Positions 41,189 through 44,771 of a stretch of DNA of 64,000 nt are shown here, one piece after another. The stretch's first letter is position 1, and the number at the start of each line of letters is the position of its first letter. The translations under genes were made by a program, and so were the position numbers. Source of the stretch: Bacteroidota bacterium (GTDB lineage: Bacteria; Bacteroidota; Bacteroidia; Flavobacteriales_F; PHOS-HE28); assembly GCA_018267155.1 (NCBI GenBank), contig JAFDZE010000009.1, positions 1 to 64,000 on the forward strand. The letters run 5' to 3'. A model generated the notes under the pieces. That model did no database searches, was not told the origin of the DNA, and worked only from the letters and a program-made list of their open reading frames with translations.

Positions 41189-41958
41189 ATGAAGACAAAA
41201 AAGCGTTTCATCAGTTCATCTTCCGATCGGCGCAATTCCTCGTAGGTGCCTTCAAGGTAGTTGCGGCCCCCATGCAGTACCGCGATGCGGTTGGCGGCCA
41301 GCTTGGCCACATGCAGGTCGTGCGAGATGATGATGCTGCTGGTGTTGTAGCGGCGCTGCAGATCGAGGATCAGCTCCACGATCTCCTTGCCGGTGATGGG
41401 GTCCAGGCCGGTGGTGGGCTCGTCGTAGAGCACGATCTCCGGCTTCAGGATCAAGGTCCTTGCCAGCCCGATGCGCCGCTTCATGCCGCCGGACAGCTCG
41501 CTGGGGTAAAGGTCTCGGGTTTCGGAGAGGCCCACCGCCGCAAGCACTTCCCCCACCAAGGCGTCGGCCTCGCCGGGTGTGGTGGCTATCCAGTGGCGGC
41601 GCAAGGGGAACTCCAGGTTTTCCTGCACCGTCATGCTGTCGTACAGGGCGCTGCTCTGGAACAGGAAGCCGATCTTCACCCGCAGGTGGTCCAGGGCATC
41701 CTGGTCCAATGCCAGCATGTCCTGCCCAAGCACCTCGATGCGGCCGCTATCGGGCCTCAGCAGGCGCACGATGCACTTGATGAGCACGCTTTTCCCGCTG
41801 CCGCTGCGGCCCAGTACCATCACGTTCTCGCCGCGGTGCAGGTCCAGGCTGAAGCCGCGGATCACATGGTTGCTGCCGAAGGACAGGTGCAGGTCCTGGA
41901 TGCGGATCACGCGCTCCGCTGCCGCGTTCGGCTGGCCGGGTGGGTATGGATCTGCCAT
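41185..41958 (-). CDS. MlaF-like ABC transporter ATPase
   Basis: A 257-residue ABC ATPase. Walker A LGRSGSGKSVLIKC, Q-loop GFLFQSSALYDSMTVQENL, signature LSGGMKRRIGLAR, Walker B IVLYDEPTTGLDP and H-loop IISHDL are all present. The Q-loop region SSALYDSMTV is typical of MlaF-type rather than general import ATPases. It powers the MlaE-like permease next to it, which it overlaps by one base, and the MCE protein, by 4 bases. Confidence 0.94.
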   Translation of the reverse strand: MADPYPPGQPNAAAERVIRIQDLHLSFGSNHVIRGFSLDLHRGENVMVLGRSGSGKSVLIKCIVRLLRPDSGRIEVLGQDMLALDQDALDHLRVKIGFLFQSSALYDSMTVQENLEFPLRRHWIATTPGEADALVGEVLAAVGLSETRDLYPSELSGGMKRRIGLARTLILKPEIVLYDEPTTGLDPITGKEIVELILDLQRRYNTSSIIISHDLHVAKLAANRIAVLHGGRNYLEGTYEELRRSEDELMKRFFVFM

Positions 41959-42734
41959 CAGGTAAAGCCTAACAGGTCCGTGATCTGCACCACGAGCAGG
42001 TCCAGGATGAAGATGAGCAACGAGGCCGTGACCACGGCACTGTGCGCGCTGCGGCCCACGCCCTCGGTGCCTTTCTTGGTGGTGAAGCCCTTGTAGCAGC
42101 CCACCACGCCAATGGCCAGGCCGAAGAAGAAGCTCTTGATGAAGGCGGGGATGAGATCGCTGTACTCGAGCGAATCGAACACTTGGCGGTAGAAGAGCTC
42201 CCAGCTCACGGTATCGCGCAGGTTCACGCCGATCCAGGAGGCCCAGATGGAGATGCCGTCGGCAAACACCACCAGCACGGGCAGCATCAGGATGGTGCTC
42301 CAGATGCGTGTAACGGCAAGGTAGCGGAAGGGGTTGGTTCCGCTCACCTCCATGGCATCGATCTGCTCGGTCACGCGCATGCTGCCCAGTTCAGCCCCCA
42401 TGCTGCTGCCGATCTTGCCGGCGCAGATCAAGGCGGTGATCACCGGTGCGATCTCGCGCACCATGCTGATGGCGACCATGGCCGGCAGCATGCTTTCGGC
42501 CCCGAAACGTGCCAAGGTCGGGCGGCTTTGCACCGTAAGCACCAAGCCCATGATGAAGGCCGTGACCCCTACCAAGGGCAGGGTCAACGCCCCGTTCACG
42601 GTACATTGACGGATCAGCTCGCGCCACTCGAAGCGCGCGTGGAACGCATTGCGGAAGAAGCGATCAGTGAACTCGGCGATCTCACCGACCTCGGTCAGGG
42701 CCGAACGGAAACCGGATCCACCCTTGCCCGCCAT
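41958..42734 (-). CDS. MlaE-like ABC permease
   Basis: A 258-residue MlaE/YrbE-type permease with five or six helices. Conserved stretches are VNGALTLPLVGVTAFIMGLV, SMVREIAPVITALICAGKIG, GAELGSMRVTEQIDAMEVSG and the C-terminal GLAIGVVGCYKGF. The ATG at 42734 starts the family-like region; a longer frame to 43019 runs through transposase debris. It is the first gene of the three-gene operon. Confidence 0.93.
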   Translation of the reverse strand: MAGKGGSGFRSALTEVGEIAEFTDRFFRNAFHARFEWRELIRQCTVNGALTLPLVGVTAFIMGLVLTVQSRPTLARFGAESMLPAMVAISMVREIAPVITALICAGKIGSSMGAELGSMRVTEQIDAMEVSGTNPFRYLAVTRIWSTILMLPVLVVFADGISIWASWIGVNLRDTVSWELFYRQVFDSLEYSDLIPAFIKSFFFGLAIGVVGCYKGFTTKKGTEGVGRSAHSAVVTASLLIFILDLLVVQITDLLGFT

Positions 42735-42891
42735 GGCGTGTAATGTAGGAAGCCGGATCGATCCGGAAGGGAATGTAGTGCAGACCCACATCTGCGATGA
42801 TCCAGCCTCTGGCGAACAAGCAGGCCAAGGATGAAGGGACCGTTTCAGCCTGCAATGCCGATATCCGTTCATGCCCCGCGAATTGCCGCAA

Positions 42892-43002
42892 CGGCACACC
42901 ATCCGTTTGAAATGATACGATATAGCCCAGGCCGGTGCGTATTTCGTGACGGCATGCGCGCATGAACGTGCGCACCTGTTCGGGAAGATCATCGATGCCC
43001 AA
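42892..43002 (+). pseudogene. Remnant of REP-associated transposase N-terminus
   Basis: The plus strand reads RHTIRLK, a stop, then YDIAQAGAYFVTACAHERAH and LFG. This matches the first third of the intact transposase at 44136 (RRSIRLKGYDYTQAGAYFVT...HERAHLFG). A TGA interrupts it and the HUH and Tyr parts are absent. It is a dead fragment of a second copy. Confidence 0.85.
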
Positions 43003-43030
43003 ATGCACCCATCGCCCATTGGCGAATTGG

Positions 43031-43186
43031 CCTGAAGTCGATTGGTTCAAGATCCAAGGCCTGCGGCACAGGATCGTTCAGGACTACGGCAACATCGACG
43101 ATGTCCAGATCCATCGGATAGCGAACAAGTACGTGCCACCCTTGGTAGAGCAATTGAAGAAGATCCTCGAGGCGGGAGAGGCGTGA
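43031..43186 (+). pseudogene. Fragment of HepT-like (DUF86) gene
   Basis: The frame from 43031 reads PEVDWFKIQGLRHRIVQDYG, then ends with YVPPLVEQLKKILEAGEA and a stop at 43186. This is the C-terminal third of a HepT-type ribonuclease of MntA-HepT toxin-antitoxin pairs, whose active motif is R-x4-H-x-Y. Here the His position is Gln (RHRIVQDY). No N-terminal part or MntA partner is present; transposase debris is joined just upstream. Confidence 0.75.
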
Positions 43187-43344
43187 TCAGACCCCGCGGC
43201 AGCACATGTATTACACGGGCGTCACCACACGGTGCGGCAGCAAGATGTGCGTTGTAAGCGCACTGGGAACATCGCCCGTAATGCAAACGCGGGCGAGTGG
43301 GGGAAGTGGACCGGTTCAATGAGTGGGGATCAAGGTCCGGCCTG

Positions 43345-43352
43345 TATCTTTG
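43345..43352 (+). promoter_or_regulatory. Bacteroidota -7 promoter box
   Basis: TATCTTTG fits TAnnTTTG exactly and lies 19 bases before the ATG at 43372. It supports that ATG as the antitoxin start rather than 43297. No clear -33 element is seen. Confidence 0.5.
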
Positions 43353-43371
43353 GACACCAAGCAACAGAGGG

Positions 43372-43620
43372 ATGACCTTCGACACCAAAGGAAACCAGAG
43401 CCAGGCCGTGGATCGGATCTTGGCGCGCGTCAGCGAACTATCTGCTGCTGATAGGCGTGCCTTCATGAAGGCCATTCGGCAGCAGGAACGCAAGGATGAT
43501 ATCGCGTGGCTGCACAAGGTCTGGGGCAAGGTGTCGCTGAAGGACAGCGAGATCACGCGCATCGTTGAAGAAGTAAGGACGGAGATGCATGCCTCGCGCT
43601 CGCCCAAGGCTCGTCGTTGA
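43372..43620 (+). CDS. Putative antitoxin of PIN toxin pair
   Basis: An 82-residue protein, MTFDTKGNQSQAVDRILARV onward, helical and charged, ending EEVRTEMHASRSPKARR. It overlaps the following PIN toxin gene by 32 bases, the usual arrangement for this toxin type. No antitoxin domain is recognised. The ATG at 43372 lies just after a good -7 box; the longer start at 43297 is less likely. Confidence 0.65.
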   Translation: MTFDTKGNQSQAVDRILARVSELSAADRRAFMKAIRQQERKDDIAWLHKVWGKVSLKDSEITRIVEEVRTEMHASRSPKARR

Positions 43621-44014
43621 TACCAACGTTTTGATCAGTTGGTTGATCGGAAAGCGGCTGCGCGAACTGGATGTCTTGCTGATGGAGGAACTCTTTCAAC
43701 TATGCCTCTCAACGCGGGCCTTGGCAGAGATCGCCGAAGTGACGCGACGGCCGAAGTTGCGCAAGTACTTCACGCAGGCCAGGGCGGAGGAGAGCATCGA
43801 GCGCTTGGGCCGTGTGGCGAAGGTGCTGAAGCGCGAACCGAAGGTGATCCCCATCTGCCGCGATGCGAAGGATGACTTCCTGCTCGCGTTGACCAAGGCC
43901 GCAAAGGCGGATCTGCTGGTGACCGGTGATGATGACCTGCTCGTGCTGAAGAAGTACGGTCGGACGAGAATAGTGACGCCTGCGGAGTTCCTGAAGGATC
44001 ATGTGAAGGCGTAG
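43589..44014 (+). CDS. PIN domain toxin (COG1569-like)
   Basis: A 141-residue PIN-fold ribonuclease. It starts PRLVVDTNVLISWLIGK with the first catalytic Asp, has Glu in RALAEIAEVTRRPKLRKYF, and Asp pairs in CRDAKDDFLLALTKAAKADL and LVTGDDDLLVLKKYG. All acidic positions of the metal site seem present. Such toxins cut RNA; the antitoxin overlaps upstream. It lies next to transposase remnants. Confidence 0.88.
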   Translation: MPRARPRLVVDTNVLISWLIGKRLRELDVLLMEELFQLCLSTRALAEIAEVTRRPKLRKYFTQARAEESIERLGRVAKVLKREPKVIPICRDAKDDFLLALTKAAKADLLVTGDDDLLVLKKYGRTRIVTPAEFLKDHVKA

Positions 44015-44098
44015 TGGAGGTTACGCGCATGGTGTACCGCGACGGGTTGTTGCCCCACGGCACGCCGCCCTGAGCTTGTCGAAGGGTGGCAACGGTAT

Positions 44099-44118
44099 GG
44101 GCGGGAAATTTCCCGCCC
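44099..44118. repeat. 20-base palindrome upstream of transposase
   Basis: GGGCGGGAAATTTCCCGCCC is perfectly self-complementary, 17 bases before the transposase ATG. It shares the G/C-block, AATT-like centre and C/G-block design of the two other palindromes in this locus (44411 and 44750). Likely a REP-type target or end. Confidence 0.8.
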
Positions 44119-44135
44119 GGTCCGATATTCGTGAT

Positions 44136-44747
44136 ATGGCCGACCGTTTCCACCGGCGATCCATCCGGTTGAAAGGATACGATTACACCCAAGCCGGTGC
44201 GTATTTCGTGACGGCATGTACCCACGAACGTGCGCACCTGTTCGGTGACGTGGACAACGGGATGATGGCGCCGAATGCAATGGGCATGGTGGCGCAACGA
44301 TGTTGGGATGCCATTCCGGAACACATGCCCATGGTGGCATTGGATGAATTCGTCGTGATGCCGAACCACATCCATGGGATCATCGTGATCACGGATCCGG
44401 CGTCGTCGGTCGGGAATGGCAGGGGCGGCGAATTCGCCGCCCCTGCCATTCCCGGGAAACCGACGCCGCCGGAAATGGGCAACGATCCCCCGCAACGACG
44501 ACAACCAATTGTCACCATGGTCCCAAATTCATTGGGCCACATCATGCAAACGTTCAAGGCCGCGGTTTCGCGGCAGGCCGTGAAGGATGGTTTGGTCGCG
44601 CGTGGCACACCGATCTGGCAACGCGGGTATATTGAACACATCATCCGCAATGGGGCGTCGCATGACAGGATCGCCAATTACATCCGGAACAACCCGGCGA
44701 ATTGGAACGCCGGGGATTTTGAAAGGGGCGAAGCGCCCGCCGGGTAA
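44136..44747 (+). CDS. REP-associated tyrosine transposase (Y1/HUH)
   Basis: A 203-residue single-strand Y1 transposase (RAYT/TnpA-REP family). Catalytic marks: the HUH pair in VVMPNHIHGIIVI (His78, His80) and Tyr165 in WQRGYIEHIIRN, with the RSIRLKGYDYTQAGAYFVTA start. A linker at residues 92-106 (GNGRGGEFAAPAIPG) is coded by a 44-base perfect palindrome. The ATG at 44136 is used; a longer frame begins at 44076. It is flanked by REP-like palindromes, and remnants of a related copy lie 1.2 kb upstream. It could cut and rejoin REP hairpins. Confidence 0.9.
   Translation: MADRFHRRSIRLKGYDYTQAGAYFVTACTHERAHLFGDVDNGMMAPNAMGMVAQRCWDAIPEHMPMVALDEFVVMPNHIHGIIVITDPASSVGNGRGGEFAAPAIPGKPTPPEMGNDPPQRRQPIVTMVPNSLGHIMQTFKAAVSRQAVKDGLVARGTPIWQRGYIEHIIRNGASHDRIANYIRNNPANWNAGDFERGEAPAG
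44411..44454. repeat. 44-base perfect palindrome inside transposase gene
   Basis: The 22 bases 44411-44432 are the exact reverse complement of 44433-44454, centred on GAATTC. The arms read CGGGAATGGCAGGGGCGG and on. It stays in frame. The core GGGGCGG..AATT..CCGCCCC is like the palindromes flanking the gene. Confidence 0.95.
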
Positions 44748-44749
44748 CA

Positions 44750-44771
44750 GGGGCGAGAGAATTCCCGCCCC
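44750..44771. repeat. REP-like hairpin downstream of transposase
   Basis: GGGGCG ... CGCCCC arms around an AGAATT-containing loop, starting 3 bases after the transposase stop. Imperfect relative of the palindromes at 44099 and 44411. Confidence 0.6.

Follow-up and report, generated by a model that had tools for sequence, protein, structure and literature searches.

Most probably, a REP-type double-foot hairpin with a 28-nt core lies within the beta3-alphaC loop of a subclass-2.4 TnpA_REP gene without breaking the reading frame, and is tolerated there as a linker. The hairpin forms the centre of a perfect 44-nt palindrome in the 64-kb window (the whole stretch of DNA analysed here). REPs inside subclass-2.4 genes are already known; particular to this case are a right arm that appears to have been rewritten and feet that are changed on both arms. 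The features on which the analysis rests are as follows.

44136..44747, + strand: tnpA_REP / RAYT coding sequence, 203 aa plus stop, with an ATG start matched by relatives
44367..44375, + strand: HUH motif H78-I-H80, inside MPNHIHG; H78 and H80 invariant in a 69-protein alignment
44396..44473, no strand: outer imperfect inverted repeat enclosing the 44-mer; folds; inverted self-match 80%
44411..44454, no strand: 44-nt perfect palindrome; residues 92-107, GNGRGGEFAAPAIPG region
44419..44446, no strand: 28-nt double-foot REP-type core, GCAGGGGCGGCGAATTCGCCGCCCCTGC, feet GCAG/CTGC
44679..44681, + strand: predicted catalytic-tyrosine codon Y182, in YIRNNP, assigned by motif; nearly invariant in the 69-protein alignment
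44099..44118, no strand: upstream flanking palindrome, GGGCGGGAAATTTCCCGCCC, perfect 20-mer with degenerate feet GTAT / GGTC
44750..44771, no strand: downstream flanking palindrome, GGGGCGAGAGAATTCCCGCCCC, imperfect (8/11 pairs), directly after the stop codon

A flawless palindrome lies in frame within a REP-associated transposase gene

The segment at 44411-44454, CGGGAATGGCAGGGGCGGCGAATTCGCCGCCCCTGCCATTCCCG, is identical to its reverse complement over 22+22 nt and cannot be extended further. This confirms the preliminary description, which had also correctly placed it in frame within a REP-associated transposase, between the HUH (H78/H80) and Tyr (Y182) parts. No other perfect palindrome of the window is as long, the runners-up measuring 22, 20 and 18 nt. 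A chance origin was ruled out: from base composition, perfect palindromes of at least 44 nt are expected ~1e-8 times per window and 6e-7 times per genome. The inverted repeat is larger than had been described, as 44396-44410 pairs imperfectly with 44455-44473, and 44396-44473 folds far more stably than shuffled sequences, with -79.5 kcal/mol and a z of -8.1 for RNA, and a z of -8.4 for DNA.

The host protein has the motifs and predicted fold of subclass 2.4

Alignments of relatives begin at the methionine encoded by the ATG at 44136, which is thus the best start. Against NCBIfam REP_Tyr_transpos the protein scores 62.9 bits (E 2.8e-17), where the curated cutoff is 80, a shortfall that probably reflects the splitting of the profile match by the long linker; the match to Pfam Y1_Tnp is weak (21.1 bits, cutoff 23). 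A sequence search of the PDB found no match to the protein, even at E 10. For an AlphaFold model built on 69 relatives, the top Foldseek match was 4ER8, the E. coli TnpA_REP-REP hairpin structure (E 1.2e-5), followed by IS200/IS605 TnpA structures (the IS608 and ISDra2 transposases). The protein thus combines an HUH motif, a single Tyr and a predicted Y1 fold, as RAYT / Y1 HUH transposases do. It also carries the subclass-2.4 motifs NH[IFV]H, WQ and YIxNNP (PMC6006769 Table 1), as NHIH at 77-80, WQ at 161-162 and YIRNNP at 182-187, and the model places a variable-length beta3-alphaC insertion between HuH and Tyr. Motifs and predicted structure together point to a TnpA_REP of subclass 2.4.

The core of the model is confident, with pLDDT mostly above 90, whilst approximately residues 86-132 are unstructured and of low confidence. 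A strand at 78-85 and a helix at 133-150 have no structure between them, and pLDDT falls below 50 at residues 93-104, coinciding with the palindrome-encoded residues 92-107. The linker between HUH and Tyr is therefore predicted to be disordered; its length in relatives ranges from 2 to 94 aa.

The window element is degenerate and not repetitive in its genome

With a palindromic stem within the 20-50 nt of REPs, the window element is REP-type; it does not carry a GT[AG]G foot, having GCAG/CTGC instead, and is the sole exception among 21 linker elements of 28 nt, the other 20 ending in GTAG/CTAC. GTAG is present in the orthologues G020, G043, G018, G024, G012 and G039, and it is through these GTAG-footed orthologues that the gene shows the in-frame REP of subclass 2.4, the window's own copy being without the foot.

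The host genome searched is a draft of 164 contigs, 82% complete. It contains no other exact copy of the palindrome stem, and the GGGGCGG...CCGCCCC core occurs once. Allowing up to 3 mismatches to the degenerate form of this core returned four further palindromes, two of which are the flanks of the gene and one of which lies at C134:48524; two double-foot elements with other stems are also present. The GGGGCGG...CCGCCCC family that had been supposed is hence not borne out as a genomic repeat, being a single core with few loosely related palindromes, and the many copies typical of a REP are not found in the draft genome. The flanking palindromes do exist and are related, as had been proposed, one as a perfect 20-mer and the other with imperfect pairing. 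GTAG feet are absent from all three window palindromes, the flanks having GTAT/GGTC and ACAG/CAAC, and to judge by these feet the flanking copies look decayed. We considered GGGCGGGAAATTTCCCGCCC as a genus-wide REP and rejected this, as its copies are without GTAG feet; they are left as related palindromes.

The earlier designation as a REP element thus stands in part: the element is REP-type, in frame and in the HUH-Tyr linker, whilst the GTAG foot and repetitiveness are absent here. Having lost the foot and not being repetitive, it falls outside a strict definition of REPs and is best called a degenerate REP-type element.

Double-foot elements recur in the linkers of relatives

Relatives of the transposase span several phyla (Bacteroidota, Chloroflexota, Proteobacteria, Thermus/Meiothermus, Cyanobacteria and others). 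Across 101 of them, the best hairpin in the linker exceeded that of equal-length core windows in the same genes (Wilcoxon p ~1e-15); a hairpin score of at least 8 was reached by the linker in 76/101 relatives, and by the mean core score in 2/101. Strict double-foot elements (28 or 29 nt, GTAG...CTAC type, with GCAG...CTGC in the window) were found in 31/102 linkers, from many phyla and 10.6 kb of linker sequence, as compared to 0 in the 47 kb of core (flanking coding halves) scanned. It had been envisaged that all related transposases might share the linker with no palindrome; instead, strong hairpins and strict elements are present at these frequencies, and the linker peptides differ. Some linkers are short and hairpin-free, such as that of L098 (2 aa).

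Among the 31 elements, stems vary strongly, whilst the 28/29-nt length and the GTAG...CTAC ends are constant. Within the 28-mer, the foot and most of GGGGC are kept and the central pairs are free. The foot is read in frame 0 (VGA...) in 23 elements and in frame 1 (xRG...) in 8; the frame in which its TAG would be a stop is used by 0/31. A copy matching with at most 4 mismatches lies within 1.2 kb of 11/31 elements.

Longer perfect palindromes were also seen elsewhere: 52-nt perfect palindromes surround double-foot elements in the linkers of G018 (L008/L199) and G111 (L026), and in L046 a double-foot element has perfect arms of at least 24 nt beyond the feet.

Paired changes preserve the hairpin as DNA

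The window, G018, G024, G010 and G039 share what appears to be a single locus near a carboxylase gene, to which two further relatives on short contigs seem to belong. The 28-mers of this set differ by at most 12 bases, nearly all at mirrored positions. In a six-sequence alignment, 13/22 pairs had changed on both sides, a value as high being reached by 0/500 shuffles and slid controls giving 2-5; no core window reached 12/14 pairs. The near-identical 28-mer, with 3 differences, is read as GRGGEFAAPA in the window and as VGAANSPPLP in G043, which branches between window+G020 and G039. Being read in two frames, it is the DNA that persists and not the peptide.

The closest comparison is with G020 (MAG SJ6), in which 6 differences fall within the 44 nt and 4 within the remaining 409 nt (Fisher p 9e-5). 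Every one of the six differing positions of the palindrome is paired in the window; one of them, position 44439, is a G020-specific change. On the right arm, CTAC-GGATCCCG is common to G020 and G039, and the window has CTGC-CATTCCCG: the ancestral CTAC-GGA-TCCCG has become CTGC-CAT-TCCCG and now complements the left arm exactly. Within it, CAT pairs base for base with the left-arm ATG, which is common to the window and G020, and the left-arm GCAG is unique to the window. A three-base block swapped for the complement of the opposite arm fits hairpin-templated (quasipalindrome) repair, an interpretation drawn from one lineage and one relative, G020, whose contig ends inside the gene. Pairing selection, or replacement by new REP copies, would similarly produce covariation of the arms. 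Template switching is known to homogenise inverted-repeat arms in yeast, coding genes included (Abraham and Hazkani-Covo 2021, PMC8604942); that case shares with ours a clustering of multi-nucleotide changes by which an imperfect inverted repeat becomes perfect, and differs in that ours is a REP-type element in a bacterial RAYT.

We propose that the element would have arisen by the REP copying associated with RAYTs, and that a disordered loop outside the conserved catalytic core would have tolerated it in either frame that avoids the TAG stop from the GTAG foot. The absence of repeats in the draft genome weakens the case that it was copied from a genomic REP. The 28-nt element and a partly matching flank could then have become the perfect 44-mer, the left arm being copied onto the right by template-switch repair, and the shift from GTAG/CTAC to GCAG/CTGC on both arms may stem from the same repair process or from compensatory change. 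GCAG was barely cleaved by the Stenotrophomonas TnpA_Sm, although binding persisted (PMC8266576). If this behaviour carries over, the window element is probably now a poor substrate for its own transposase.

We also considered a general rewriting of REP flanks into long inverted repeats. Pairing extends at least 5 nt beyond the feet in 16% of 94 elements, as compared to 0.3% in a shuffled-partner control, and this idea was dropped, the two loci with orthologues being confounded: one lies between divergent genes, where TAnnTTTG-like promoter motifs form the arms, and the other directly after a stop codon, where hairpins change quickly. Separately, at L165, L151 and the orthologous loci L239-L264, GTAG...CTAC palindromes lie between divergent genes, with arms resembling two TAnnTTTG-type promoters; an element of this type may itself be a divergent promoter hairpin or lie within one.

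Alternative explanations

Of the three readings offered in the preliminary description (a tolerated insertion, a self-target and a regulatory hairpin in the mRNA), insertion tolerated as a linker is the best supported. Under self-targeting or self-regulation, the palindrome would be retained through its binding by the transposase, in one version as single-stranded DNA, thereby marking or cutting the gene, and in the other as a hairpin in the mRNA, thereby lowering expression. The very stable hairpin in both RNA and DNA (z about -8), the recurrence of the same position across phyla and the match of some linker elements (11/31) to flanking REPs are all consistent with this, but several relatives have short hairpin-free linkers, the three window palindromes are without GTAG feet in a setting where GCAG is barely cleaved in the sole system tested (PMC8266576), and tolerance by itself accounts for the loop position; we judge it unlikely. 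Selection for a useful linker peptide, with the palindrome as a side effect, could draw on the flexible linker rich in glycine and proline in many relatives. This is largely refuted by the unrelated peptides encoded by nearly the same 28-mer in two frames, and the compensatory DNA changes on both sides and the predicted disorder of the region also speak against it, leaving it with almost no credence.

Local template switching might have made the hairpin with no REP ancestry, and the templated look of the outer arm in the window is in favour of this; the constant 28/29-nt length and GTAG...CTAC ends across 31 linkers with differing stems, the matching flanking copies for a third of linker elements and the GTAG-footed elements in orthologues' linkers make this very improbable. 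An assembly artefact at the palindrome of a metagenome-assembled genome could be suspected from the fragmented draft, and from an N run in G039 and a contig end in G020 that both fall in the RAYT gene. We regard this as extremely improbable, given that the frame stays open across the palindrome, the gene continues intact through its downstream half and the same element occurs in independent assemblies. In the orthologous RAYT of G039 (L013, C161), the N run coincides exactly with the palindrome and is bordered on either side by GCGGCGAATTCGCC, a pattern to be expected where a hairpin or a duplicated REP breaks assembly.

Beyond a REP-type element tolerated as a linker, a broader proposal is that subclass-2.4 RAYTs keep the linker hairpin as DNA, independently of frame, by repeated templated rewriting or by self-targeting in cis, and that the window gene has caught a recent rewriting that removed the foot on both arms. 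We hold this to be possible but rather unlikely.

Relation to known systems

An in-frame REP in tnpA_REP, generally between HuH and Y, is unique to subclass 2.4 (Quentin et al. 2018, PMC6006769), which is described as having "double foot" REPs and a "long double foot inserted in tnpAREP"; the inserted REP was suggested to have little effect on activity, the region being peripheral. The window gene shares the motifs, the insertion site and the in-frame long double-foot REP of this subclass (Bertels group 4 RAYT), which occurs in Bacteroidetes, but differs in having GCAG/CTGC for GT[AG]G/C[TC]AC, 44 perfectly paired nt and hardly any copies in the genome. GTAG REP elements (Di Nocera et al. 2013, PMC3733652) are likewise short palindromes with a GTAG-type foot and intragenic in-frame copies, whereas here the foot is mutated, the copy number is low and the gene that carries the element encodes the transposase itself. 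Rickettsia palindromic elements (cited in PMC3733652) are also palindromic DNA tolerated in frame in proteins, but have no tie to a RAYT gene or to a HUH-Tyr linker. Our analysis extends the published subclass-2.4 observation by the reading in two frames, the empty stop frame and the complementarity maintained through paired changes. It offers a compact case in which to ask if RAYTs act on the genes that encode them, or if ordinary replication repair is enough to maintain such palindromes in perfect form.

Gene neighbourhood

Window 44019-44590 aligns with G020 C58:77635-78203 (L205), the RAYT coding sequences being ~99% identical outside the palindrome, whilst the carboxylase genes of the same two genomes are ~91% identical and the upstream neighbours differ. 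Sequence comparison suggests that the RAYT was recently transferred or moved. None of the four coding changes outside the palindrome in this pair is synonymous, and the pair therefore gives no sign of current gene function; older comparisons of the gene indicate constraint (dN/dS about 0.16-0.39).

Upstream, window 43021-44094 shares 98% identity with G004; the similarity breaks off abruptly at 44094, shortly ahead of the upstream palindrome, and the G004 counterpart runs directly into a RAYT C-terminal remnant. A further imperfect palindrome, GCCCTGAGCTTGTCGAAGGG, lies at 44067-44086 just upstream of the RAYT, and is of a type that we take to be widespread in environmental bacterial genomes. 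A second RAYT remnant at window 42889-43035 covers residues 6-54 (59% identical, two TGA stops) and lies antisense over the N-terminus of an MlaE-like permease ORF (41958-43019, - strand), with a similar remnant in G004. Given this antisense remnant, the start of the permease ORF is probably set too far upstream. The 43021-44094 stretch also contains a gene for a PIN-family toxin (43589-44014); a small ORF upstream (43297-43620) overlaps it, and the two likely form a toxin-antitoxin pair.
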